59,235 nt of DNA from Bacilli bacterium (GTDB lineage Bacteria > Bacillota_I > Bacilli_A > RFN20 > CAG-826), in assembly GCA_017635565.1 (NCBI GenBank), contig JAGBLE010000028.1, forward strand, positions 1 through 59,235, given 5' to 3'. The translations under genes were made by a program, and so were the position numbers. The first letter of the stretch is position 1, and each line of letters begins with the position of its first letter. Shown here piece by piece: positions 4,006-21,055 of the stretch. The notes under the pieces are model-generated. The model did not search any database, was not told where the DNA came from, and saw only the letters and a list, made by a program, of their open reading frames with translations.

Positions 4006-5388
4006 ATGAGAAAACCAATCTTAGAACCAGAATTCAAACCAGCGATAATTGAATTAAGAAACTTTGAAAATGAAGTTAATAAATTCAAAAACAAAGAGCA
4101 TGTTGTTGTTTCTGTTGAAAGAGCGGGTGGATACATTTATCGAAGAGAGTTTGACATTCTTCCAAAAGGCATTGATGATGAAAGAAATATCTTCATTGTT
4201 GAAAGACTAATTAAATGTATCCTATGGGTCGTTGGTGGTTATAAGATTTATATTGCGGGACCTCATTATATATATGAAAAAATAAAAGAATTTTATTCTC
4301 CAAACAAATTGAGAGATTTTGATTTTCATTTCATGTCAACTGTATTTGAAAAAGAAATGGAAGTTATTGAATGCAGTTATGAAGACATTCCTAACCAGAA
4401 ATCTAGTTCGATTCCAATCGGCGGCCATTTAGAAGGTAGACGTATTGGCTTTGATGTCGGTGGTAGTGATATTAAAGTTTCTGCGGTGGTTGATGGAAAA
4501 GTCATTGATTCTAAAGAAATCGTTTGGTTGCCTAAATTAAATGAAGACATTAATTATCATTATGATTTCTTTTATAAAGCAATGAAAGATGCGGTAGATG
4601 TCTTAGGCGGAGATGTTGACGCGATTGGAATTTCTGCGGCAGGAGTAATCGTGGAAAATAAGCCAATGGTTTCTTCGATTTTTATCAAAGTTCCAAAAGA
4701 GAATTTTGATTTAGTTAAAGGAGCGTATATAAACACGGTCCATAGATTAGAAAAAGAATTAGGACATAAAATACCTTTTGAAGTCGCTAATGATGGTGAT
4801 GTTACTGCTCTTGCTGGGGCTATTGATTTGAAAGATAACTGTGTTTTAGGAATTGCTATGGGAACTAGTGAGGCGGTTGGTTATGTAGATGAACACGGCA
4901 ATTTAACTGGCTGGTTTTCTGAATTAGCGTTTATGCCTGTTGATTTCAATAAAAACGCCGAAGTGGATGAGTGGAGTAAAGATTTTGGTGTCGGATGTAA
5001 ATATTTCTCTCAAGATGCAGTTATTAAACTTGCTCCAAAAGCTGGAATTGTTCTTGATGAATCATTAACTTTAGCGGACAAATTAAAAGTTGTCCAAAAG
5101 CTTCATGAAGAAGGACACGAAGGAGCGAAACAAATCTTTGAATCTATCGGAGTATATCTTGCTTATACGATTGCCTTTTACGCTGAATTTTATAAAATTA
5201 AACATCTTATTTTATTAGGAAGAGTGACTTCAAATAAAGGTGGGGAAGTAATTTTAAAAGTTGCTAAAGAAACTTTGGAAAAAGAATTCCCTGAATATAG
5301 AGATATCGATATTAGGATGCCAAGCGATTTTATGAGGCGATTAGGTCAATCAATTGCCGCTGCATCTTTAACTGAGAACAAAGCGTAG
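4006..5388 (+). CDS. ROK-family sugar kinase with an extra N-terminal domain
   Basis: 460 residues. A ROK (actin-like ATPase) core begins near residue 145 with the phosphate loop GFDVGGSDIKVSAVVDG, has a middle segment with ISAAGVIVENKP and an adenosine region with GIAMGTSEAVGY. Typical ROK kinases have about 300 residues. The first about 140 residues here are an additional domain I do not recognise. The gene starts one base after nagA, so a role in amino-sugar phosphorylation (GlcNAc or ManNAc kinase) is inferred from context. The classic ROK cysteine-rich zinc motif is not evident. A sugar-sensing or regulatory function is an alternative. Confidence 0.7.
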   Translation: MRKPILEPEFKPAIIELRNFENEVNKFKNKEHVVVSVERAGGYIYRREFDILPKGIDDERNIFIVERLIKCILWVVGGYKIYIAGPHYIYEKIKEFYSPNKLRDFDFHFMSTVFEKEMEVIECSYEDIPNQKSSSIPIGGHLEGRRIGFDVGGSDIKVSAVVDGKVIDSKEIVWLPKLNEDINYHYDFFYKAMKDAVDVLGGDVDAIGISAAGVIVENKPMVSSIFIKVPKENFDLVKGAYINTVHRLEKELGHKIPFEVANDGDVTALAGAIDLKDNCVLGIAMGTSEAVGYVDEHGNLTGWFSELAFMPVDFNKNAEVDEWSKDFGVGCKYFSQDAVIKLAPKAGIVLDESLTLADKLKVVQKLHEEGHEGAKQIFESIGVYLAYTIAFYAEFYKIKHLILLGRVTSNKGGEVILKVAKETLEKEFPEYRDIDIRMPSDFMRRLGQSIAAASLTENKA

Positions 5389-9657: not shown

Positions 9658-10308
9658 ACGATGATATAATTCGTTATTTTTAATATTTCCTTTATCTTTA
9701 TAAATCAGAGATAATCCTTTATTTTTTTCTTCAAGCATTTCTAATTCATCAATGTCTTTGTTAATGACTTTTATTTCTTCGTATCCATTTTGCGAAATGT
9801 CAATCGATATAGTGTCATTAGATAAAAGAACATTTCCTTTATCGATTATTTGAAAATTGTTCATATTAAATAACAAGTCATTGGATAAATGAATAACGTT
9901 ATCAGTGTCACTAGTAACTCGATAATCAATTAGGAGTTCGTTTTTATCATCAACAATTGAATAGGTCACATATATATTTAAGTTACCGGGCTTTCCATCA
10001 ATCATATTTTTCTTATTAAAAAAGAATGATGCTACGAAACTATGATCATCAAATGTTGGTTTAGAAGAAAAGATAAAATTTGGACATGAATATTGTTTAT
10101 TTTCTATTTCATAAGGCCCAATTGTTCTTCCTAATGTTGAATTATTGAGAAAATCTTTAACATATTTTGGAGTAACAGTGATGAGTTCATCATTTAATTG
10201 AATTGATTTAATTGCCGCTCCAATAGGAGAAAAAATAATTCTTAGTCCACTAGAATTAATAACTTCAATAAATATTGCTTTTCCAAATTGATGGGTCTTA
10301 TATTGCAT
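9625..10308 (-). CDS. Reduced aldose 1-epimerase-like (GalM fold) protein, probably without mutarotase activity
   Basis: 227 residues against about 340 for GalM. Recognisable GalM pieces are the N-terminal GLRIIFSPIGAAIKSIQLN, GRTIGPYEI and DGKPGNLNIYVTYSI. The catalytic histidines normally seen in the NHxHGG and THFNL-type motifs are missing: the first region is deleted and the second reads IHLSNDLLFN. The normal C-terminal glutamate motif is not evident. The frame is intact, so this is a shortened homologue and not an obvious pseudogene; a binding role is possible. No ribosome-binding site is present; TAAAAT lies 6 bases before the ATG, suggesting a leaderless mRNA. Confidence 0.6.
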   Translation of the reverse strand: MQYKTHQFGKAIFIEVINSSGLRIIFSPIGAAIKSIQLNDELITVTPKYVKDFLNNSTLGRTIGPYEIENKQYSCPNFIFSSKPTFDDHSFVASFFFNKKNMIDGKPGNLNIYVTYSIVDDKNELLIDYRVTSDTDNVIHLSNDLLFNMNNFQIIDKGNVLLSNDTISIDISQNGYEEIKVINKDIDELEMLEEKNKGLSLIYKDKGNIKNNELYHRSILYKFIKRS

Positions 10309-10462
10309 GTATATATTTTATATTTATTACGCGTAAATATATAACTTTAATTAATATACGCGCATGCGAGAAAAATAATTTACAAAAAATTAAAAATTTA
10401 TAAATACAAAGTATTTATCTGATTAATTTTTATAAAAAATAAAAAAATATTTAAAAAAATGC
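10309..10462. other. AT-rich intergenic segment with palindrome TTACGCGTAA
   Basis: This spacer lies between the GalM-like gene and the large RNA. It contains the perfect palindrome TTACGCGTAA near 10327-10336, CG-rich against an A/T background, and a second CG-rich spot, ACGCGCATGCG, near 10358. These could be protein-binding sites. No gene is seen. Confidence 0.4.
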
Positions 10463-10490
10463 TTGACCATAAATATTAAAGTGATAGACT
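10463..10490 (+). promoter_or_regulatory. Promoter of the large structured RNA
   Basis: TTGACC (10463-10468), a 16-base spacer and TAGACT (10485-10490) lie immediately upstream of the abrupt change from A/T-rich DNA to GC-richer structured sequence. The predicted start is about 10496. Confidence 0.55.
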
Positions 10491-10572
10491 TATAAGCACC
10501 CACACCTAAGGAAACGATGGTGATGGAGAGGCAGTAAGTATCGATAGATACTTAAAGAACGCCTAAGTCTAG

Positions 10573-10818
10573 GTAAGACAATCGACGAAACAAACTAAGT
10601 TGACAGAACGGTTTCAAGAATAAAGCGTCTTGGATTAACGATTGCACTAGCATATAGATGATTACAGTATCATCTAGTGGGTCAACCTCCCTGCTACAGT
10701 GGTTGCTGAGTTAGAATTTGACAGCGTAATTCCACCGCCCGACACGATCGAAGAGGACATGATAAGCTTAACGAACTTATCCCAGCCGGTTCACGCTAAA
10801 GTCAACTCAAAACGTGAA
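10573..10818 (+). repeat. Module 1 of the large RNA
   Basis: Helices in order: CAATCG (10579) with CGATTG (10639); TCAAGA (10614) with TCTTGG (10628); hairpin TAGATGAT (10655) with ATCATCTA (10669); CCTC (10686) with GAGG (10753); GTGG (10699) with CCAC (10732); GCTG (10705) with CAGC (10722); GATAAG/CTTATC near 10761-10781; TTCACG (10790) with CGTGAA (10813), whose loop holds TCAACTCAAA. Confidence 0.75.
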
Positions 10819-10871
10819 ATAAGTAGAGAATCAAGTTTCGCTGCGAACATAGGCCGTCAAAGTTTAGCCCT

Positions 10872-11117
10872 TTGTGACAATCAACCAATAAAACGACGTT
10901 GATAGTAAGGTTCCAGAAATAAATCTTCTGGTTAATGATTGCGGGGCTTATCAATCGTAAGACTGATTAAAAGGCAAACCTCCCTTCTAGTGGTCGCTGA
11001 GTTAGAGCTTAACAGCGTAATTCCACCGCCTGACACGTTCAAAGAGGAAAGAAAAAACGCTCCTTAGTTAACGCTAATGAGCAAAACCTAATCCACATTA
11101 TTCAACTCAAAGTGTGG
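10872..11117 (+). repeat. Module 2 of the large RNA
   Basis: Helices: CAATCA (10878) with TGATTG (10936); ATCAAC/GTTGAT hairpin just inside it; CCAGAA (10913) with TTCTGG (10926); CCTC (10979) with GAGG (11044); GTGG (10990) with CCAC (11023); CGCTG (10995) with CAGCG (11013); GCTC/GAGC near 11059-11082; CCACA (11093) with TGTGG (11113), loop TCAACTCAAA. Confidence 0.75.
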
Positions 11118-11185
11118 TGATAATGGAAGAACTGCAAACTCCTGATATCTTCCATGAAGAAATGGTCTACAGAGCTTAAGACTAG

Positions 11186-11446
11186 ATAAGACAGTCGAGT
11201 CCACAAATTGACTATGGACTTCCAGAAGTTAAAGACATTCTGGTTTACCGACTGCGCTAGCAAAGAATCATTACGAAAGTATTGATTATCGGTACGTTCC
11301 TCCCTGATAGCTTGCTATCATCGGTCTCTGCGTTAGAGTTTGACAGAGTAAATCCGGCACCGGACATGACAAAGAGGAAAACAGCCTTGACGCTAATAAC
11401 GAAAGGAAGCTGGCCACCAGTACGCTACTCAATTCAAAACGTATTG
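11186..11446 (+). repeat. Module 3 of the large RNA
   Basis: Helices: CAGTCG (11192) with CGACTG (11249); AGTCCA/TGGACT hairpin inside it; CCAGAA (11222) with TTCTGG (11238); a hairpin with a GAAA tetraloop near 11265-11286; an inserted TGATAGC/GCTATCA hairpin (11305-11320) absent from the other copies; CCTC (11299) with GAGG (11374); TCGG (11321) with CCGG (11354); CTCTG (11326) with CAGAG (11344); CAGTACG (11418) with CGTATTG (11440), loop TCAATTCAAA. Confidence 0.75.
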
Positions 11447-11530
11447 CCAACAAGAAGCACCACCAGCCAAAAGGAACTTAACTTGGGTATTGTGCTGCAG
11501 GGTGAAATCCCCTGCCACAGTGCAACGGTT

Positions 11531-11562
11531 ATGAGGCAAAAGAGAAAAGCCTCATTTTTTTT
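11531..11562 (+). terminator. Terminator of the large structured RNA
   Basis: ATGAGGC (11531-11537) and GCCTCAT (11549-11555) form a perfect 7-bp stem with an A-rich 11-base loop, followed by at least seven more T. It also separates the RNA from the convergent AraC gene. Confidence 0.9.
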
Positions 11563-11584
11563 GCTTTAAAAAGTGAAAAAATGT

Positions 11585-12550
11585 TTATAATCGATTCAAC
11601 AATCGATATTCAAGAGGGGTCATTCCCTCTTTTCTTTTAAATAGTTTATAAAAGAAAGTTAAATTGTTATATCCGATATGTTCAGCAATATCGTTAACAC
11701 TGATATCGGTGGATTCTAATAATGTTTTACTAACTTTTAATCTCTGATCTTCTAATATATTTTGAAAAGAATAACCGGTTAGTTTTTTTATTTTCTTAGA
11801 TAAATAATTATAATCTTCCTTTAGTTTGATTGATAAATCATATAAAGTTGCGGTTTGATAATTGTTTTCGATGTAATTATAAGTTTTGAATAGAAGCATT
11901 GAATCATAATTACTGGCTTTTGTTTCTTCAGCTTTTTCGGTGTGTTTTAATAATTCGAAAATAAGTAGAAGGAAATAATATCTCAAAATATTATTCATTT
12001 TTTCATCTCTTTCTTCATAATTGATCAAAATGTTATAAACAATATTTTGAACTTGTTCACAATTTGATAAGTGGAAGATGATTGAGTTATTTGATTCTTT
12101 ATCAGAAAGAAGGTTGATCAAGAAGTTTTTAATTGTTCCATCACTATCAATAAAAGGGATAATAAAGTCAAAGAACTCAGATAAAATGATAAAATTCAGT
12201 AAAATATCGTTTTCTTTAGCAGGTAAAAATTCATGTTTACTATTTTTTCCTAAAAATATAATTTCTCCTTGTCTAATGGTTATTTTATTTCCATCGACAA
12301 TCTCTTCGATTTCGCCAGAAAGAACATAATTAATTTCTAAATAGTTATGACTATGTTTTTTAACAACACAAAAACGAGGGTGCTTTTTAATCATAATCAT
12401 TCCATCTTTTAAAAGAGATTTAGCATCCACAATTTGAGCAATATCAGTGAGATATGGAGTATCGTTATGCTTCTTTTTAAATTCGATCGCTTCGAGTTCT
12501 TCTTGATTGTATTGACGGTATTGATCGATAACTTCTTCGAGTGTTTTCAT
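11585..12550 (-). CDS. AraC-family regulator, probable activator of rhaDBA (RhaS/RhaR-like)
   Basis: 321 residues from the Met at 12550. An upstream Met at 12598 in the same frame would place coding sequence over the operator repeat, so the later start is preferred. An N-terminal cupin sugar-binding domain (HSHNYLEINYVLSGE...VDGNKITIRQGEIIFLG) is joined to a C-terminal double helix-turn-helix (LYDLSIKLKEDYNYLSKKI; ISVNDIAEHIGYNNLTFFYKLFKRKEGMTPLEYR). It is divergent from rhaD, and paired direct repeats in the shared intergenic region (12574-12590 and 12616-12632) are its likely binding sites. The first repeat sits directly upstream of its own start, which suggests autoregulation. No ribosome-binding site is seen. 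Confidence 0.82.
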   Translation of the reverse strand: MKTLEEVIDQYRQYNQEELEAIEFKKKHNDTPYLTDIAQIVDAKSLLKDGMIMIKKHPRFCVVKKHSHNYLEINYVLSGEIEEIVDGNKITIRQGEIIFLGKNSKHEFLPAKENDILLNFIILSEFFDFIIPFIDSDGTIKNFLINLLSDKESNNSIIFHLSNCEQVQNIVYNILINYEERDEKMNNILRYYFLLLIFELLKHTEKAEETKASNYDSMLLFKTYNYIENNYQTATLYDLSIKLKEDYNYLSKKIKKLTGYSFQNILEDQRLKVSKTLLESTDISVNDIAEHIGYNNLTFFYKLFKRKEGMTPLEYRLLNRL

Positions 12551-12685: not shown

Positions 12686-13504
12686 ATGAAAAAATTCATT
12701 GATTCACCTTTTGTCAAAGAAGTAAGTGATATTACTTTAAATATGTATCGTCAAGGTTGGGATGAACGTAATGGCGGTAATATTTCATATCTAATTGATG
12801 AAAAATATGTTCGTGAATATTTTAAGGAAGATAAAGTAATTAGAAAGATTCCTTTAGGATTTGAGGCTGATGAAATTGTTAGAGGCAAATATTTTCTCGT
12901 TACTGGAACTGGCAAATATTTCAAAAATGTCAAAGGCGATCCAGAAACAAACCTCGGATTAGTCAAAATTTGTGATTGTGGGCATGACGCTAAACTTATT
13001 TGGGGATTTAAAGATGGTGGTAAATTTACCAGTGAATTCCCTGCTCATTTAATGAGTCATGCAGCTAGACTTAAAGTTGATCCTAACAACAGAATTGTCA
13101 TGCACACCCATCCAACTTACACAATTTGTATGGGAGCGTGCTTACCGACCGATGAAAAAATATTCACTCGTAAATTATGGAAGAGTAATACAGAAGCAGT
13201 TGTTGTTTTCCCTGAAGGCATTGGAGTTCTTCCATGCATGATTTGTGGCACTAATGAGATTGGTGAAGCAACTGCGAATAAAATGAAAGATTTTAGACTT
13301 GTAAGTTGGACAAACCATGGTATTTACGGAGTTGGACATACAATTGATGAAGCCTTTGGTCTAATTGAAACTGTTGAAAAGACCGCTCAAATATATATGT
13401 TGACATTAGGACATGTCGTTAACGAAATTCCTGATGAAGTAATTATTGGTTTAGCGAAACTTTGGAATTTAAAAATGATGCCAGGCGTCATTGAGGAAAA
13501 ATAA
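12686..13504 (+). CDS. rhaD: Rhamnulose-1-phosphate aldolase
   Basis: 272 residues, against 274 in E. coli. A zinc class II aldolase that splits L-rhamnulose-1-P into DHAP and L-lactaldehyde. Catalytic and zinc residues fall at the expected places: E117 in TSEFPAH, H140 and H142 in MHTHPTY, and H211 in WTNHGIYG. NERNGGNISY-like WDERNGGNISY at 25-35 binds substrate phosphate. First gene of rhaD-rhaB-rhaA. Its TAA overlaps the rhaB ATG by one base. Confidence 0.95.
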   Translation: MKKFIDSPFVKEVSDITLNMYRQGWDERNGGNISYLIDEKYVREYFKEDKVIRKIPLGFEADEIVRGKYFLVTGTGKYFKNVKGDPETNLGLVKICDCGHDAKLIWGFKDGGKFTSEFPAHLMSHAARLKVDPNNRIVMHTHPTYTICMGACLPTDEKIFTRKLWKSNTEAVVVFPEGIGVLPCMICGTNEIGEATANKMKDFRLVSWTNHGIYGVGHTIDEAFGLIETVEKTAQIYMLTLGHVVNEIPDEVIIGLAKLWNLKMMPGVIEEK

Positions 13505-14805
13505 TGAATTACTATTTAGCAATCGATCTTGGGGCCACTAGTGGAAGACACGTTGTTGCCCATAAAGAAAAAAACGAAATTGTTTTAGAAGAAATATATC
13601 GTTTCAAAACCGGAATGGATGACACTAAAGATGGTTTGGTGTGGAATATTCCTCTCTTTTTTGAAGAAATTAAAAAAGGAATCAAAATTGCTTTCGAAAA
13701 ATATCGTAACATCATTTCTCTATCAATTGATACTTGGGGTGTTGATTATGTTCTCATGAATGGGGATAAAGAAATTCCTCCATTTTATGCCTACAGAAAC
13801 GCAAGAAACTTGTCTTCCTGTGATTTAGTTGATGAAATTATTCCTTTTAGAGAATTGTATCGTCACACTGGAATCCAATTTGCAACATTTAACACGATTT
13901 ATCAACTTTATGATGATTTACAAAAAGGGAGATTAGATAACGCGACTGATTATTTAATGCTTCCAAGTTATTTCACTTATAAATTAACTGGTGTTAAAAC
14001 TCATGAATACACTGATGAATCAACTGGGGCTTTGCTTAATATTGAGACAAATGATTATGATTTTGAAATTATAGATAAGCTTGGGTTACCAAGAAAATTA
14101 TTTACTGAAATCAAACATCCTGGCTATGTAATAGGAGATTTATTGCCAGAAATTCAAAAAGAAGTTGGTGGGAATTGCAAGGTTGTTCTCTGCCCTTCTC
14201 ACGACACTGCTAGTGCTTTTGAAGCGGTAGATCTTCCAGAAAAATCGATTCTTATCTCAAGTGGAACTTGGTCTTTACTCGGTGTGAAAAATAAAGATGC
14301 AATTGTTACAGATAAAAGTAGAATTGCAAATTACACAAATGAGGGTGGGGTTGGTTATTACCGATTCTTAAAAAATATTATGGGGATGTGGATTGCTAAC
14401 TCATTAAGAGATGAAACGGGTCTTCCATTCCATTACATTGATAATGGATTGCGATTCTCAAAATATAAAAATACATTTGATGTTAACGATCCAAGCTTAA
14501 CCGCTCCTAAAGATATGAGGATGGCTATCTATTATTTGCTTAGAAATAATCCGCCTAAAGATACAATTGATATGTTTGCATCAATTTATCAATCAATGGC
14601 AATCTGCTATCGAAAATCGATTGAAGAATTAGAGAATATCACCGGCGAAAAATATTTGAATATTTATATCGTCGGAGGAGGCGCAAAAAATAAATACTTA
14701 AACAAATTAGTGGCAAAAGAAACAGGAAAGAATGTCAAAGCTCTTCCTATTGAAGCGACTAGTATGGGAAATATTAAAACTCAGATGGAGGCATTTAAAG
14801 AATGA
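13504..14805 (+). CDS. rhaB: Rhamnulokinase
   Basis: 433 residues, somewhat shorter than the 489 of E. coli RhaB but with the complete FGGY two-domain fold. The N-terminal ATP site is AIDLGATSGRHVV, substrate-side residues include IDTWGVDYVL, and the C-terminal ATP site shows SSGTWSLLGV and IVGGGAKNKYLNKLVA. It phosphorylates L-rhamnulose at O1. Translationally coupled at both ends: one-base overlap with rhaD and a four-base ATGA overlap with rhaA. Confidence 0.93.
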   Translation: MNYYLAIDLGATSGRHVVAHKEKNEIVLEEIYRFKTGMDDTKDGLVWNIPLFFEEIKKGIKIAFEKYRNIISLSIDTWGVDYVLMNGDKEIPPFYAYRNARNLSSCDLVDEIIPFRELYRHTGIQFATFNTIYQLYDDLQKGRLDNATDYLMLPSYFTYKLTGVKTHEYTDESTGALLNIETNDYDFEIIDKLGLPRKLFTEIKHPGYVIGDLLPEIQKEVGGNCKVVLCPSHDTASAFEAVDLPEKSILISSGTWSLLGVKNKDAIVTDKSRIANYTNEGGVGYYRFLKNIMGMWIANSLRDETGLPFHYIDNGLRFSKYKNTFDVNDPSLTAPKDMRMAIYYLLRNNPPKDTIDMFASIYQSMAICYRKSIEELENITGEKYLNIYIVGGGAKNKYLNKLVAKETGKNVKALPIEATSMGNIKTQMEAFKE

Positions 14806-16037
14806 GAAAAGAAGTAAGAAACAAATACAAAGAATACGGAGTTGATGTTTTTGAAGCTCTTAGAAAGCTTAAAGAAACAAAAATATCTCTTCACTGCTGG
14901 CAACTTGACGATGTTAAAGGATTTGAAGGCGCTGGAGACTTAACGGGCGGAATTCAAACGACTGGTAATTATCTCGGAAGAGCGAGAAATTTCAAAGAAC
15001 TAACACAAGATTTAGATGTTGCTCTTAAATATATTCCAGGAAGCAAGAAAATCAATCTTCATGCGATTTATCAAACTGGAAAAATTGTTGAAAGATGTGA
15101 TGTTGGACCTGAACAATTTAAAGAATGGGTTAGCTATGCTAAAGAAAGAGGTCTTGGTCTTGATTATAATCCAACAATCTTCTCTCACCCAATGCTTAAA
15201 GATGGATTAAGTTTATCCTCTCCAGAAAAAGAAGTAAGAGATTATTGGATTAAACATTGTATTAATGGATTAAAAATCACTGAAATGTTTGGCAAAGAGC
15301 TTGGTCAAAAATCTCTTATGAACATTTGGATTCCGGATGGGTTAAAAGACACTCCTGCAGACCGATTAGGCCCAAGACTCCGCTTAAAAGATGCTTTGGA
15401 TGAAATTTTAACTGGCTATAAATATGATAAAAAAGTAATGGATGTTTCCGTTGAAAGTAAAGTTTTTGGAATCGGTGTTGAAAGCTATACAACTGGAAGT
15501 AATGAATTTTATTTAAACTACGCGGCAAGTAGAAATATTTGTTGCCTTTTAGATACAGGACACTTCCATCCAACCGAAAATGTCGCTGATAAAATTTCCA
15601 GTATGTACGCTTTTTATAACAAATTAGCGTTCCATGTCTCTCGTCCGGTAAGATGGGATTCCGATCACGTCTTAAAACTTAATGACGATCTTCAAGATGT
15701 CGCGGATGAATTGGTGAAATGCGATGGACTTAAGAGAAGTTATATTGGTTTAGATTATTTCGATGCTTCTATTAATAGAATTTGTGCTCTTGTTATTGGT
15801 GCTAGAAATATGGAAAAAGCCTTATTAAAAGCATTATTAACACCTTGGGGTTTATTAAAAGAAGCACAAGATAAAGGCGATCACACTCGTGTTTTAGCCC
15901 TCCAAGAAGAAATTAAAACTCTTCCATGGGGAGAAGTTTGGGATGAATATCTTAATCGTCAAGGCATGGTGAGCGATGCTCAAATGTATCAAGAAATTAA
16001 AGAATACGAAAATAAAGTATTAGTTAATAGAAAATAA
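14802..16037 (+). CDS. rhaA: L-rhamnose isomerase
   Basis: 411 residues, close to the 419 of E. coli RhaA. A metal-dependent TIM-barrel isomerase converting L-rhamnose to L-rhamnulose. Family segments visible include LHCWQLDDVKGFEG near the N-terminus, LHAIYQTG, LGLDYNPTIFSHP, NIWIPDGLKDTPADRLGPR, CLLDTGHFHPTENVADK and LAFHVSRPVRWDSDHV, covering the metal ligands. Last gene of the operon, followed at once by a terminator. No rhamnose mutarotase or transporter gene adjoins the operon. Confidence 0.95.
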   Translation: MRKEVRNKYKEYGVDVFEALRKLKETKISLHCWQLDDVKGFEGAGDLTGGIQTTGNYLGRARNFKELTQDLDVALKYIPGSKKINLHAIYQTGKIVERCDVGPEQFKEWVSYAKERGLGLDYNPTIFSHPMLKDGLSLSSPEKEVRDYWIKHCINGLKITEMFGKELGQKSLMNIWIPDGLKDTPADRLGPRLRLKDALDEILTGYKYDKKVMDVSVESKVFGIGVESYTTGSNEFYLNYAASRNICCLLDTGHFHPTENVADKISSMYAFYNKLAFHVSRPVRWDSDHVLKLNDDLQDVADELVKCDGLKRSYIGLDYFDASINRICALVIGARNMEKALLKALLTPWGLLKEAQDKGDHTRVLALQEEIKTLPWGEVWDEYLNRQGMVSDAQMYQEIKEYENKVLVNRK

Positions 16038-16047
16038 AAATTAATTG

Positions 16048-16070
16048 GAGATGTTAACCATCTCCTTTTA
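16048..16070 (+). terminator. Terminator of the rhaDBA operon
   Basis: GGAGATG (16048-16054) and CATCTCC (16060-16066) form a perfect 7-bp stem with a TTAAC loop, followed by TTTT. Confidence 0.8.
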
Positions 16071-16141
16071 GTTTAAAGCGATAATTATATTTGCTTATTA
16101 TGCTATTTATATTTTATTTTTTGCTATCTTGTCTCTAAACA

Positions 16142-16169
16142 TTGAAATTATTTGATTAATTTATAAAAT
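16142..16169 (+). promoter_or_regulatory. Candidate promoter of the manA-uxaC cluster
   Basis: TTGAAA (16142-16147) and TAAAAT (16164-16169) with a 16-base spacer. The expected start is about 16176, one or two bases before the GTG at 16178, so the mRNA would be nearly leaderless. Confidence 0.45.
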
Positions 16170-16186
16170 TAAATTAAGTGATAAAT

Positions 16187-17086
16187 ATGGACACAGTAAA
16201 ATTAAAAGGAATTACAAAAGATTATATCTGGGGTGGAAAGAAACTTTTTGATTACGGTAAATCTTCTTCTCAAGATATTATTGCAGAAAGTTGGGAATTG
16301 TCTTTCTTTGATGATAATGAATCAATGATTGATTCAGGTAAATATAAAGGCAAAACCTTAAAAGAAGTTATTAGTGATAAAGAACTTGGAAAAAACGTAA
16401 AAAAATTCCCGTTCTTTCCAGTTTTAATAAAATTAATTGATGCGAATAAAGATTTATCAATACAAGTTCACCCAAGCGATGAATACGCTTTAAAATACGA
16501 AAACTCTTTTGGCAAAACCGAAATGTGGTATGTCGTTGAAGCTGATGAAAATTCTTATCTCCATATTGGATTTAATAAAGATGTCAGTAAAGAAGAAGTT
16601 GAAAGAAGAATTAAAGACAATTCTCTTTTGGAAATAATGAACCATATTAAAGTCAAAGAAGGAGATTGTTATTTCATTCCAAGCGGAACCCTACACGCGA
16701 TTGGCAAAGGTGTACTAGTTTGTGAAATTCAAGAAAACTCAAATTTAACATACCGTGTTTATGATTATGGTCGCCTTGATAAAAATGGAAACCCAAGAGA
16801 ATTACACGTTGAAAAGGCATTGAAAGTTCTTAACTTCAATAAATTAATTCCTCAGAATATTCAATCTTCTGTTTTAGCGGATTGTGAATATTTCAAAGTT
16901 TGTAAATATGAAAACGCTACCATAATTGAAGCAGATGAAAATAGTTTTGTCTCTTTTACAATTGTTGAAGGTAGTGGTTTTGTTAACGATTTACCATATT
17001 CTAAAGGGGACACATTCTTCGTTCCTGCAAACGGAAAAGCAGTGATTAAAGGAAAAAATAAAATTATTACTACAAAAATAAATTAG
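16187..17086 (+). CDS. manA: Mannose-6-phosphate isomerase, type I
   Basis: 299 residues from ATG 16187. A GTG at 16178 would add three codons and sits at the predicted transcription start; neither has a strong ribosome-binding site. Short Firmicutes-type ManA, interconverting fructose-6-P and mannose-6-P. Zinc ligands are visible in IQVHPSDEYA and GKTEMWYV, with the later histidine in SGTLHAIGKG. The arginine-containing segment NLTYRVYDYGR follows. First gene of a cluster with sugar kinase, KDPG aldolase, KDG kinase and glucuronate isomerase. Confidence 0.9.
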   Translation: MDTVKLKGITKDYIWGGKKLFDYGKSSSQDIIAESWELSFFDDNESMIDSGKYKGKTLKEVISDKELGKNVKKFPFFPVLIKLIDANKDLSIQVHPSDEYALKYENSFGKTEMWYVVEADENSYLHIGFNKDVSKEEVERRIKDNSLLEIMNHIKVKEGDCYFIPSGTLHAIGKGVLVCEIQENSNLTYRVYDYGRLDKNGNPRELHVEKALKVLNFNKLIPQNIQSSVLADCEYFKVCKYENATIIEADENSFVSFTIVEGSGFVNDLPYSKGDTFFVPANGKAVIKGKNKIITTKIN

Positions 17087-17095
17087 GAGAAGCGT

Positions 17096-18031
17096 ATGAG
17101 ACATATAATTGGTATTTCTATAGGCGGCACTAAAACCGCAATTTGTTACGCAACATTAGGCGATAATAATGAAGTTTTGGAAGTTGTTAAAAAACAAACA
17201 CCAACTCTTCCTTTTGATCCTGATACCAATATGAAAAATATCTATAAGGCAATTGATGAATATCCTCAAGATTTTGATTTCATTTCTGTTATTGCTGGTT
17301 CGCCAATGGATGCTGATAATGGCTTAATATTAGCGCCAAGCAACCTTCGTGGTTGGCATGATTATCCAATCGTTAATCTTTTAAAAGAAAGGTACAAAGT
17401 CGATTCGACTCTTCTTAATGACGCTGATGCTTCTGCTTTAGCGGAATACATTTATGGAGTTGGAAAAGGAAGTAGAAACTTTGTTTATCTCACTGTTGGA
17501 ACTGGTTTTGGTGCCGGATTAATTTTAAATGGACAATTATATTCTGGCGGATGCTTCAACGCTGGAGAAATTGGTCATCTTCGTGGTAGTGAAACTGCTA
17601 ACGGACCAACAAGAAATGAGAAAAAAGGAAGCTTTGAGAGCTTAGTAAGTGGAGGCGGAATGGGTGATTATGCTAATGCATTTATAAAAGACCATCCAAA
17701 TTCGCTTCTCAATAAATATGAAAAAATTAGTGCTAGAGATGTTTTTACTGAAGCACGCAATGGCGATGAATTCGCGTTATTTATCGTTAATCAATGCGCA
17801 ACTAAATTAGGAGAAGCATTATCAATTATTCTTGATCTTCTTAATCCTGATGTTGTTGCTATTGGTGGCATATATCCTCGTGGACTAGATTTATTAGAGA
17901 AAACTGTTTTAAAAGTTGCTGAAGAGAATTCTCTTCCAATTAATTTTCATCACGCTAAAATTCTTCCTTCTGAGCTTGAAGAGAAAATTGATGACTATTC
18001 TTCATTGATGGGAATTTTTAAAAATAAATAA
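17096..18031 (+). CDS. ROK-family sugar kinase (glucokinase/fructokinase-like)
   Basis: 311 residues, standard ROK length. The phosphate loop GISIGGTKTAICYA is near residues 5-18, the substrate-binding Asp lies in LLNDADASALAE, the second loop is VGTGFGAGLILNG, and the GEIGH motif follows with its histidine. The cysteines of the usual ROK zinc site (CxCGxxGC) are absent after GEIGH, which is seen in some subfamilies. TAGGAGAA precedes the ATG. Between manA and eda, it could phosphorylate fructose, mannose or glucose. Substrate unresolved. Confidence 0.78.
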   Translation: MRHIIGISIGGTKTAICYATLGDNNEVLEVVKKQTPTLPFDPDTNMKNIYKAIDEYPQDFDFISVIAGSPMDADNGLILAPSNLRGWHDYPIVNLLKERYKVDSTLLNDADASALAEYIYGVGKGSRNFVYLTVGTGFGAGLILNGQLYSGGCFNAGEIGHLRGSETANGPTRNEKKGSFESLVSGGGMGDYANAFIKDHPNSLLNKYEKISARDVFTEARNGDEFALFIVNQCATKLGEALSIILDLLNPDVVAIGGIYPRGLDLLEKTVLKVAEENSLPINFHHAKILPSELEEKIDDYSSLMGIFKNK

Positions 18032-18041
18032 GGAGTTTATT

Positions 18042-18638
18042 ATGTTTCAAGAAGTGCTAGAAAATAAATTGGTTCCTGTTGTTGTCTTTAAAACACTCGA
18101 TGAAGTTGAACCAACTATGTCTTCTTTAATCAAAGGAAATATCAGGGTTGCCGAGATTTGTTTTCGTACTGATGTTGCTCCAGAAGCATTAAAGAAGGCA
18201 GTTAAAAACTACCCAAACATTTTAATTGGAGCGGGAACAATTATTAATAAAGAACAGGCTGAATTGGCAATTAGTCTCGGCGCTAAATTCATTGTTTCAC
18301 CAGGATTAAGCGAATCAGTTAATGAAGTCTGTGTAAAACATAACGTTACTTATATTCCTGGAGTAGTAACTCCTACAGAAATTATGAAAGCGTTAGAACT
18401 TAATATCACTTATTTGAAGTTTTTCCCTGCTGGAGTATATGGTGGACTTAAAGCCATTAAGGCATTATCGAGTGCTTTCCCACAAGTAAAATTTATGCCT
18501 ACTGGCGGAGTTGATAATTCAAATTTAAAAGAATTAGCTAACGAAAAATCAATTTTTGCTATCGGCGGAAGTTGGTTACTTAAAGGCGATGTTACAGCAG
18601 TTTGCTTAGAAGCTAATAAAATCATTAAAGGAGAATAA
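18042..18638 (+). CDS. eda: KDPG/KHG aldolase
   Basis: 198 residues, class I aldolase splitting 2-keto-3-deoxy-6-phosphogluconate to pyruvate and glyceraldehyde-3-P. The general acid/base is E38 (VAEICFRT) and the Schiff-base lysine is K126 (ITYLKFFPAG). GAGTI, PGVVTPTEI and MPTGGV phosphate-binding segments are in place. AAGGAG lies before the ATG. Immediately followed by kdgK, so the two complete the lower uronate pathway. Confidence 0.93.
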   Translation: MFQEVLENKLVPVVVFKTLDEVEPTMSSLIKGNIRVAEICFRTDVAPEALKKAVKNYPNILIGAGTIINKEQAELAISLGAKFIVSPGLSESVNEVCVKHNVTYIPGVVTPTEIMKALELNITYLKFFPAGVYGGLKAIKALSSAFPQVKFMPTGGVDNSNLKELANEKSIFAIGGSWLLKGDVTAVCLEANKIIKGE

Positions 18639-18640
18639 AC

Positions 18641-19663
18641 ATGGCCAAGGTTGTTACTTTAGGAGAAATAATGCTTCGTTTATCCACTAACGGAAACGAA
18701 AGATTTGCTCAAGCAAGAAATTTTGAAATTAATTATGGTGGTGGAGAAGCTAACGTCGCTGTTTCTTTATCTCATTATGGTCATGATGCATATTACATTA
18801 GCAAGCTTCCATCTAACGACATTGGAGAAGCCGCCATTAAGGCCTTAAGAGCGGAAAATGTTAAAGTAGATTATGTTGTTCGAGGCGGAAATAGAATTGG
18901 TATTTATTATTTAGAAACAGGTTCTTCCTTAAGAGCGAGTAAAGTTATTTATGATCGTGCTAATAGCGCAATTGCTGAAAGTAAAATAAGTGAATATCAA
19001 TTAGAAAAAGCACTTAAAGGTGCTAGTGTTTTTCACTTTTCAGGAATTACTCCAGCGTTAAGCGATAATGCTGCTAAACTTACTGAAAAGGCCTGTAAAA
19101 TCGCTAAGAAATATGGCGTTTTAGTGTCTTGTGATTTAAATTATCGTAAAAAATTATGGAGCAAAGAAAAAGCAAGAAGTGTCATGATTCCGCTTATGCA
19201 GTATGTTGATATTTGTATTGGTAATGAAGAAGACGCTGAAGCTTGTTTAGGATATAAACCAGATGCTGATGTGACAAAAGGTAAAACTGATGCAGAAGGA
19301 TATAAAAATATTTTTAAAGAAATGGTAAAAGATTTTAATTTTAAAATTGTTGCATCTACTTTAAGAGAGTCTTATTCTGCTTCTCATAATGGTTGGAAAG
19401 CACTTATGTATGATGGTGAAAAATTTTACGAATCTAAACATTATGACATCTCACCAATTGTTGATCGTGTTGGAGCAGGAGATAGTTTCTCTGGTGGATT
19501 ATTACATGGCCTATTGTCTTTCCAAGACAAACAAAAGGCTCTTGAATTTGCAGTTGCTGCAAGTGCATTGAAACATACAATCCCAGGAGACTTTAACCAA
19601 GTTAGCGAAGAAGAAGTTCTTAATTTGATGAATGGTGATGGCTCTGGAAGAGTTTCTCGATAG
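18641..19663 (+). CDS. kdgK: 2-keto-3-deoxygluconate kinase (PfkB family)
   Basis: 340 residues. A PfkB-type kinase with N-terminal GEIMLRLST, the GGGEANVAVSLSHYGHD substrate segment and the C-terminal anion-hole/catalytic motif DRVGAGDSFSGGLLHG. It phosphorylates KDG to KDPG, the substrate of the preceding eda gene. It starts three bases after eda and shares its operon. An insertion around residues 200-225 (GYKPDADVTKGKTDAEG) is typical of KDG kinases of Firmicutes. Specificity is supported mainly by context. Confidence 0.88.
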   Translation: MAKVVTLGEIMLRLSTNGNERFAQARNFEINYGGGEANVAVSLSHYGHDAYYISKLPSNDIGEAAIKALRAENVKVDYVVRGGNRIGIYYLETGSSLRASKVIYDRANSAIAESKISEYQLEKALKGASVFHFSGITPALSDNAAKLTEKACKIAKKYGVLVSCDLNYRKKLWSKEKARSVMIPLMQYVDICIGNEEDAEACLGYKPDADVTKGKTDAEGYKNIFKEMVKDFNFKIVASTLRESYSASHNGWKALMYDGEKFYESKHYDISPIVDRVGAGDSFSGGLLHGLLSFQDKQKALEFAVAASALKHTIPGDFNQVSEEEVLNLMNGDGSGRVSR

Positions 19664-19675
19664 GCGGTTTATAAA

Positions 19676-21055
19676 ATGAGTTACATTAAAGATAATTTTC
19701 TTTTAGAAACAAAAACAGCGGCTTTCTTATATGATAATTACGCAAAAAAGATGCCAATATTTGATTATCATTGTCATCTTTCTGAATATCAAATTCTTGA
19801 AAATAAAGAATTTAATAATATCTATGAAATATGGCTAAGCGGTGATCACTATAAATGGAGATTAATGCGTAATTACGGAATTGATGAAGAGTTAATTACT
19901 GGCCAAGCAAGCGATAAAGAAAAGTTTTTAGTGTATTGTAAAGTTCTTGGAACTGCGTTTGGGAACCCTTTATACCACTGGAGCCAAGTTGAACTAAAAG
20001 AATTCTTTAATTGTGATCTTGAGATAAATGAAGAAAATGCTGAAAAGATTTGGGATGAATGCAATAAATATATCAAAGACAACCACATCACCCCAAGTTA
20101 CCTCATTACTAAAAGCAATGTCACTCACTTATTCACCACAAATGAAATATTTGATTCATTAGATGTTTTTAATAAAATCAAAGAAAAAGGATACAAGTTT
20201 CAAGTTGCCCCTGCTTTTAGAGCGGACAAAATCATGAATATTGAAGCCGATAGATACTTAGAATTTGTTTCTAAACTTGGTGAAATCAAATCTTTTGATG
20301 AATTATTAAACAAAATCGAAGAAAGATTAATCGAGTTTATTAAAGTTGGATGTGTGGCAAGCGATACTGCGCTTGAAAAAATATCTCTTGTTCCATCAAA
20401 ATTTGATGCTGAACAAGTATTTAATTTACGTCTAAGTGGAAAGAAACTTTCCGGTGAAGAAATTGATATTTTTAAGGGGTTTCTTGCGTATTATTTACTT
20501 AAATTGTACGCAAAATATAACATCCGAAGTGAACTTCATATTGGTGCGATGAGAAATAATAACACTGTGATGTTTAATAAACTTGGACTAGATACTGGAT
20601 TTGATTCGATTAGTGACAAAAATAGTATCACAAATCTATCAATACTTATGGATAGATTAAATAGCGAAAATTCTTTGCCTCCAATGATTATTTTTAATCT
20701 CAATCCAAAAATGAATGATGAAATTTTGTCTTTAATTGGTTGCTTCCAAGATCATTCATTAAAAGGAAAAATTCAATATGGTGCTTCATGGTGGTTCCTT
20801 GATAATAAAGAAGGAATTGAAAAGCATTTAAAGGATATGGCATCAATGGACCATATTGGAACATTTGTTGGTATGCTTACAGATTCAAGAAGTTTCTTAT
20901 CTTATCCAAGGCATCATTATTTTAGAAGAATTGTTTGTAATTACTTTGGCTCATTAATGGAAAAAGGCGAGATAACAAATAATAATGAATTAGTTGGTAA
21001 AGTTATTCAGGATATTTGTTATGACAATGCAATTAATTATTTTGGGATTAAATAG
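19676..21055 (+). CDS. uxaC: Glucuronate/galacturonate isomerase
   Basis: 459 residues, near the 470 usual for UxaC, an amidohydrolase-like enzyme converting glucuronate to fructuronate. The FDYHCHLS motif at 29-36 holds the metal histidines H32 and H34. Further family motifs include WLSGDHYKWRLMRNYG, SELHIGAMRNNN, and the C-terminal MLTDSRSFLSYPRHHYFRRI. It enters the uronate route that ends in kdgK and eda upstream. The intervening uxuB and uxuA are not found here. The stop codon abuts the next ATG. Confidence 0.95.
   Translation: MSYIKDNFLLETKTAAFLYDNYAKKMPIFDYHCHLSEYQILENKEFNNIYEIWLSGDHYKWRLMRNYGIDEELITGQASDKEKFLVYCKVLGTAFGNPLYHWSQVELKEFFNCDLEINEENAEKIWDECNKYIKDNHITPSYLITKSNVTHLFTTNEIFDSLDVFNKIKEKGYKFQVAPAFRADKIMNIEADRYLEFVSKLGEIKSFDELLNKIEERLIEFIKVGCVASDTALEKISLVPSKFDAEQVFNLRLSGKKLSGEEIDIFKGFLAYYLLKLYAKYNIRSELHIGAMRNNNTVMFNKLGLDTGFDSISDKNSITNLSILMDRLNSENSLPPMIIFNLNPKMNDEILSLIGCFQDHSLKGKIQYGASWWFLDNKEGIEKHLKDMASMDHIGTFVGMLTDSRSFLSYPRHHYFRRIVCNYFGSLMEKGEITNNNELVGKVIQDICYDNAINYFGIK

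Follow-up and report, generated by a model that had tools for sequence, protein, structure and literature searches.

A 1.07-kb non-coding RNA gene of uncultured Bacilli with three specialised copies of a module containing the cow-rumen-1 motif

Positions 10496–11562 of the stretch of DNA analysed here (59,235 nucleotides, the window) form a non-coding RNA gene of 1.07 kb composed of three diverged copies of one module of ~300 nucleotides. Its architecture, in which three homologous, specialised modules of constant order lie between a leader and a tail hairpin with terminator, is predicted from comparative evidence that leaves little room for doubt. We read the gene as a freestanding trans-acting non-coding RNA of ~1.07 kb forming an ordered three-domain scaffold, an explanation that as a whole we rate at a probability of roughly 60%; for the trans-acting scaffold role taken by itself the balance is about even. 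A first-pass annotation, made from the letters alone, had described a freestanding structured non-coding RNA with three module copies and compensatory changes. That description stands, having missed the known cow-rumen-1 core, two long-range pseudoknots per module (PK1 and PK2), the positional specialisation of the modules, pentamers of order 1-2-1-2-3 and a solo form; the particle-like fold or three binding sites that it also suggested are hypothetical. The features of the gene in the window are as follows.

10463–10490, + strand: promoter TTGACC-N16-TAGACT
10499–10527, + strand: 5′ leader hairpin (covariation block score 44.2, against 32.6 for the highest parallel control)
10529–10565, + strand: leader stem-loop (10541–10548 and 10538–10551 are among the 17 significant pairs)
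10529–10532/10561–10564, + strand: outer stem of the leader, occupying the slot position before module 1
10536–10553, + strand: inner hairpin within the leader stem-loop
10566–10865, + strand: module 1 (core match, alignment, module tree, covariation)
10569–10650, + strand: P1 (CTAG/CTAG) and P2 (CAATCG/CGATTG) of module 1 (10584–10639 significant)
10599–10604/10801–10806, + strand: PK2 of module 1, GTTGAC/GTCAAC (cross-species variants)
10696–10756, + strand: cow-rumen-1 core of module 1 (81.6 bits)
10714–10719/10860–10865, + strand: PK1 of module 1, loop/slot (complementarity, covariation)
10791–10817, + strand: P7 hairpin of module 1 (covariation)
10866–11177, + strand: module 2 (core match, alignment, module tree)
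10898–10902/11102–11106, + strand: candidate PK2 of module 2, GTTGA/TCAAC
10987–11047, + strand: cow-rumen-1 core of module 2 (77.9 bits)
11005–11010/11172–11177, + strand: PK1 of module 2, GAGCTT/GAGCTT (complementarity)
11124–11154, + strand: linker hairpin between modules 2 and 3 (block score 116; 11125–11153 significant)
11178–11482, + strand: module 3, the most conserved (alignment, module tree)
11206–11434, + strand: PK2 of module 3, AATTGA/TCAATT (cross-species variants)
11318–11377, + strand: cow-rumen-1 core of module 3 (73.6 bits)
11336–11340/11475–11479, + strand: PK1 of module 3, loop/slot (complementarity)
11486–11523, + strand: candidate 3′ tail hairpin (weak; 25.7 and 27.9, below the highest control)
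11531–11562, + strand: intrinsic terminator, stem ATGAGGC/GCCTCAT followed by a T run

The boundaries of the gene are those proposed in the first-pass annotation. Equivalents of the promoter are kept in 37 of the 38 homologues, as TTG[AC], a spacer of 16–18 nucleotides and a −10-like hexamer (mostly CATACT); a search with a strict TTGAC pattern matched few sites and was the wrong test, because the conserved −35 element is TTG[AC]. The terminator, which has an 11-nucleotide loop, was identified by direct reading of the sequence and is absent from the listing of the automated scan; that scan listed no terminator-like site between the modules. The enrichment in GC (0.43 in the RNA against 0.35 for the loci overall) and the lack of a coding frame also agree with the earlier description: no conserved open frame was found among the homologues, whose longest ATG-initiated frames span 20–79 amino acids on the + strand and 19–104 on the − strand. 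A 95-residue frame at 11282–11569 was rejected as a gene, since no such open frame is retained in the homologues. The conserved unit runs from promoter to terminator and measures 1.03–1.10 kb in the 38 aligned arrays, with one outlier of 947 that is probably cut by the end of its locus. Conservation falls outside this unit, which is probably transcribed as one RNA.

The Rfam search suggested in the first-pass annotation returned RF02946 (cow-rumen-1, 61 nucleotides) as the sole family reaching its gathering score in the whole window. It matched once per module, at starts 10696, 10987 and 11318, each time above the cut-off of 53.4 bits, which places the RNA within the family and bears out the claim of three diverged copies. 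The RNA is thus not wholly unknown, although the gene is more than the 61-nucleotide motif: RF02946 spans about one-fifth of a module, and the conserved unit contains three such motifs. ROOL, GOLLD, OLE, raiA and HEARO gave no match over 10300–11700 even at E ≤ 10, and no Rfam covariance model of a group I or II intron matched. A full-text literature search, outside which the original family description lies, found no paper naming cow-rumen-1, and one on tandem-domain non-coding RNAs found nothing useful. The full RNA, the rule of module order and the internal locks appear to be undescribed; what was already known is the 61-base piece of each module.

Covariance-model searches of related genomes, also suggested in the first-pass annotation, detected RF02946 in 44 of the 224 genomes searched from the same family (uncultured Bacilli); a sample of 395 genomes from the class gave no occurrence in any other family. 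A broader model of our own, R1, matched 44 of 220 genomes of the family; its one additional match among 392 genomes from the phylum was weak (E = 0.006), was taken as chance and falls where the sequence reads as coding. The homologues are nearly all metagenome-assembled genomes (MAGs). Most named records are ruminant or rumen MAGs (rumen, reticulum, omasum) labelled Bacilli, Bacillales or Erysipelotrichaceae; they came from an exact-pattern scan, which, as chance would predict, also picked up unrelated genomes.

The threefold build is not a chance resemblance, for nearly all homologous arrays in the 44 genomes have three cores. Arrays not cut by a contig end contain three cores or, in two genomes (G008 and G163), five; a further five-core array (G033) has its first module cut by the contig end. 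The cores are spaced by about 300 and then about 325 nucleotides. The third core of G120 was identified over the family search, and G004, in which one contig ends with two cores and a second contig begins with two, is read as one split trimer. The remaining one- or two-core arrays lie at contig ends or represent the solo form. Successive arrays share a contig in G008 (L038, 3 + 5 cores, with a third array on another contig) and in G015 (L044, 3 + 3 cores). The 38 arrays with three cores made up the alignment set.

A tree of 138 modules showed that trimer position-3 modules form one clade (100/99), which includes the last modules of pentamers. Position-2 modules form one clade (98/98) inside a wider one (92/93), both with even-numbered pentamer modules, and position-1 modules make up the remainder. 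The modules thus cluster by position and not by species, as expected if an old triplication was followed by specialisation of the copies; had concerted evolution or a recent duplication been at work, modules of one species would have grouped together. The pentamers read X-2-1-2-3 or 1-2-X-2-3, where X is a weakly placed copy, and so approximate 1-2-1-2-3. A diverged single-core form (G011, G015, G111, G114 and G166) is sister to position 3; the designation ‘solo’ is firm for G015, G111 and G166 only, because G011 and G114 lie near contig ends.

Covariation across the 38 trimers supports a predicted fold of this unit. Of the 50 most strongly covarying column pairs, 94% are canonical in 80% or more of the sequences, compared with 13% of random pairs. 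Under a phylogeny-aware null, in which inferred substitutions are redistributed along the tree with site rates kept, 17 of 560,211 pairs were significant at E ≤ 0.05, every one of them canonical; the weighting of covariation and the null are our own simplified form of published tests. The compensatory change that had been claimed is upheld, and the analysis recovers the helices named earlier (CAATCG/CGATTG, GCTG/CAGC, GTGG/CCAC and TTCACG/CGTGAA). Antiparallel four-pair blocks reach a score of 128, against 32.6 for the best parallel-direction control, a control that coincides in part with a genuine helix. The blocks include three PK1 and two PK2 helices; those of module 3 (PK1, 31.9; PK2, 21.2) score below the highest control and draw also on recurrence between modules. 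Conservation is greatest in module 3, with a mean identity of 0.74 and 45% of columns conserved across 90% or more of the sequences.

In PK1, the two strands are fully paired in 37 of 38 arrays (97%) for module 1, 35 of 38 (92%) for module 2 and 36 of 37 (97%) for module 3, compared with 63%, 59% and 64%, respectively, between species, when the strands were drawn from different arrays. The slot is present in all five solo forms, which lie outside the alignment used to find PK1, and one of these has a compensatory double change, from GGACTT/GAGTCC to GAGCTT/GAGCTC; in the pentamer arrays, which were held out, the perfect 6-nucleotide slot is absent from a few modules. The inner 3-bp stem of the Rfam model has loop bases in common with PK1 and fits most sequences with almost no covariation, whereas PK1 covaries. 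PK2 occurs as GTTGAT/ATCAAC, GTTGAC/GTCAAC, GTTGCT/AGCAAC and GTTAAC/GTTAAC in module 1, and as AATTGA/TCAATT and AACTGA/TCAGTT in module 3; the strands in module 2 are complementary and nearly invariant, and are assigned to PK2 solely by analogy with modules 1 and 3. Comparison of homologues thereby demonstrates, at the level of sequence, one unit of ~1.07 kb with three specialised modules, a predicted PK1 in each and a predicted PK2 in two of them.

Slot 1 directly adjoins P1 of module 2, slot 2 lies 4 nucleotides from P1 of module 3, and the corresponding stretch ahead of module 1 is paired with the leader. In the proposed scaffold, the hairpin loop of each core would dock through PK1 into a slot ~140–170 nucleotides downstream, placed at or within 4 nucleotides of P1 of the next module or, for module 3, in the tail; pairing of the P2-domain loop with the P7 loop (PK2) would, together with PK1, close the module. 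With the slot abutting P1 of the module that follows, neighbouring modules probably keep a constant orientation to one another, possibly with coaxial stacking at the slot/P1 junction. Covariation blocks for base pairing between module bodies did not exceed the parallel-direction control; as covariation thus supports no such contacts, slot position is the one feature that points to a rigid assembly. The scaffold may bind a protein or RNA partner in several copies, or may pack with itself, and module 3, invariably last and the best conserved, could act as a cap. More tentatively, the RNA might be a natural single-chain pseudo-trimer, in which an ancestral module triplicated, the copies specialised and the loops lock the modules into a particle of fixed length that can grow only by insertion of a 1-2 pair, giving 1-2-1-2-3. 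Among proteins, triplication within a chain followed by specialisation is commonplace; we know of no freestanding bacterial non-coding RNA described in such terms. The solo, trimer and pentamer forms offer a natural series for studying how RNA machines grow by domain duplication.

An RNA-only particle, in which transcripts assemble with one another as in ROOL or GOLLD, perhaps through pairing of loops with slots in trans, is unlikely. The similar size, the heavy pseudoknotting and the freestanding gene are what such a particle would share with the present RNA; moreover, ROOL env-120 was found in cow rumen, and ROOL and GOLLD chains are joined by a daisy chain of stem-loops (PMC12286853). Against this, every slot is matched by a loop in the same chain, so no partner in trans is needed, and raiA is monomeric when examined under the same conditions (PMC12286853), which indicates that a large RNA need not oligomerise. 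The lack of Rfam matches to other families likewise argues against it.

The three copies and the freestanding gene could also suit a protein sponge, titrating an RNA-binding regulator as CsrB does CsrA, a role that we consider improbable. Neither CsrA nor Hfq was found in 14 genomes in which the controls were positive, and the module positions are specialised rather than equivalent. The sponge sites known to us are, in addition, far smaller than pseudoknotted modules of ~300 nucleotides. TROVE protein, the partner in Y-RNA/Ro60 RNPs, was also found in none of the 14 genomes (one control positive). Small basic orphan proteins (~92–112 amino acids) are encoded near solo RNAs (L061:5293–5610, + strand; L045:5965–6303, − strand; L041:663–941, + strand), those of L061 and L045 having HPAYIVDEEGN..FVFHRVTHSKTSGGKKNWE in common; they were not adopted as partners of the RNA, having no Pfam match and a relative in G003, a genome lacking the RNA.

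Clustering of neighbouring genes identified no family recurring beside the arrays across genera, and neighbours occur in either orientation. Since the RNA tree also has supported branches that cross genera, the locus has repeatedly changed place or else been duplicated and lost. A mobile or selfish element would account for this crossing, for locations that differ between genera, for the patchy presence (44 of 220–224 genomes), for multiple arrays in G008, G015 and G170, and for the solo form beside an apparent cassette array in L061. We nevertheless regard it as distinctly improbable: phage and plasmid collections contain no match to the RNA, four exact pattern matches in viral contigs were not confirmed by cmscan, and no neighbour family accompanies more than a handful of arrays. 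A cis-regulatory role as tandem riboswitch or leader, for which tandem aptamers offer a precedent, is very improbable, as the genes that lie downstream are unrelated and frequently run on the opposite strand, in the window as elsewhere, and no conserved regulated gene was found downstream among neighbour families of either strand.

Other observations were made around the arrays. In L061 an apparent xpt 3′ end (GIPVYCPASIKEF...) recurs next to small-gene cassettes, suggestive of repeated insertions at the end of that gene (4162–4215 and 4862–4910, oriented, reverse strand; also L061:6786–7367, − strand). In G005 a c-di-GMP-I riboswitch (L036:5385–5459, − strand) lies on the same strand as the trimer, ~400 nucleotides downstream of its last core. 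Beside the RNA in the window, a co-oriented run of genes at 12686–21055 reads like deoxysugar or uronate catabolism (by reading only, an aldolase, a kinase, isomerases, and a KDPG-type aldolase and kinase).

Among known systems, CsrB-type sponge RNAs are multivalent and act in trans, whereas here CsrA was not found and the modules are large, ordered and specialised. Glycine riboswitches, an example of tandem aptamers, likewise have homologous folded domains in one transcript; the present RNA differs in having no conserved regulated gene and its own terminator after module 3. To our knowledge, no internal triplication has been described for OLE or raiA. Those RNAs resemble the present one as large structured bacterial non-coding RNAs (PMC12286853), with the difference that neither family matches it. 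ROOL and GOLLD are large, structured and pseudoknotted bacterial RNAs of unknown function, ROOL being known from the rumen (PMC12286853), and are built of many copies of one chain, in contrast to three module copies within one chain. The closest likeness is to cow-rumen-1, which in Rfam is a short sRNA gene modelled without PK1 and PK2 and is here the core of a ~300-nucleotide module occurring three times in a 1.07-kb RNA; an orphan Rfam motif thus becomes a small part of a kilobase RNA, with two pseudoknots added to its structure model.
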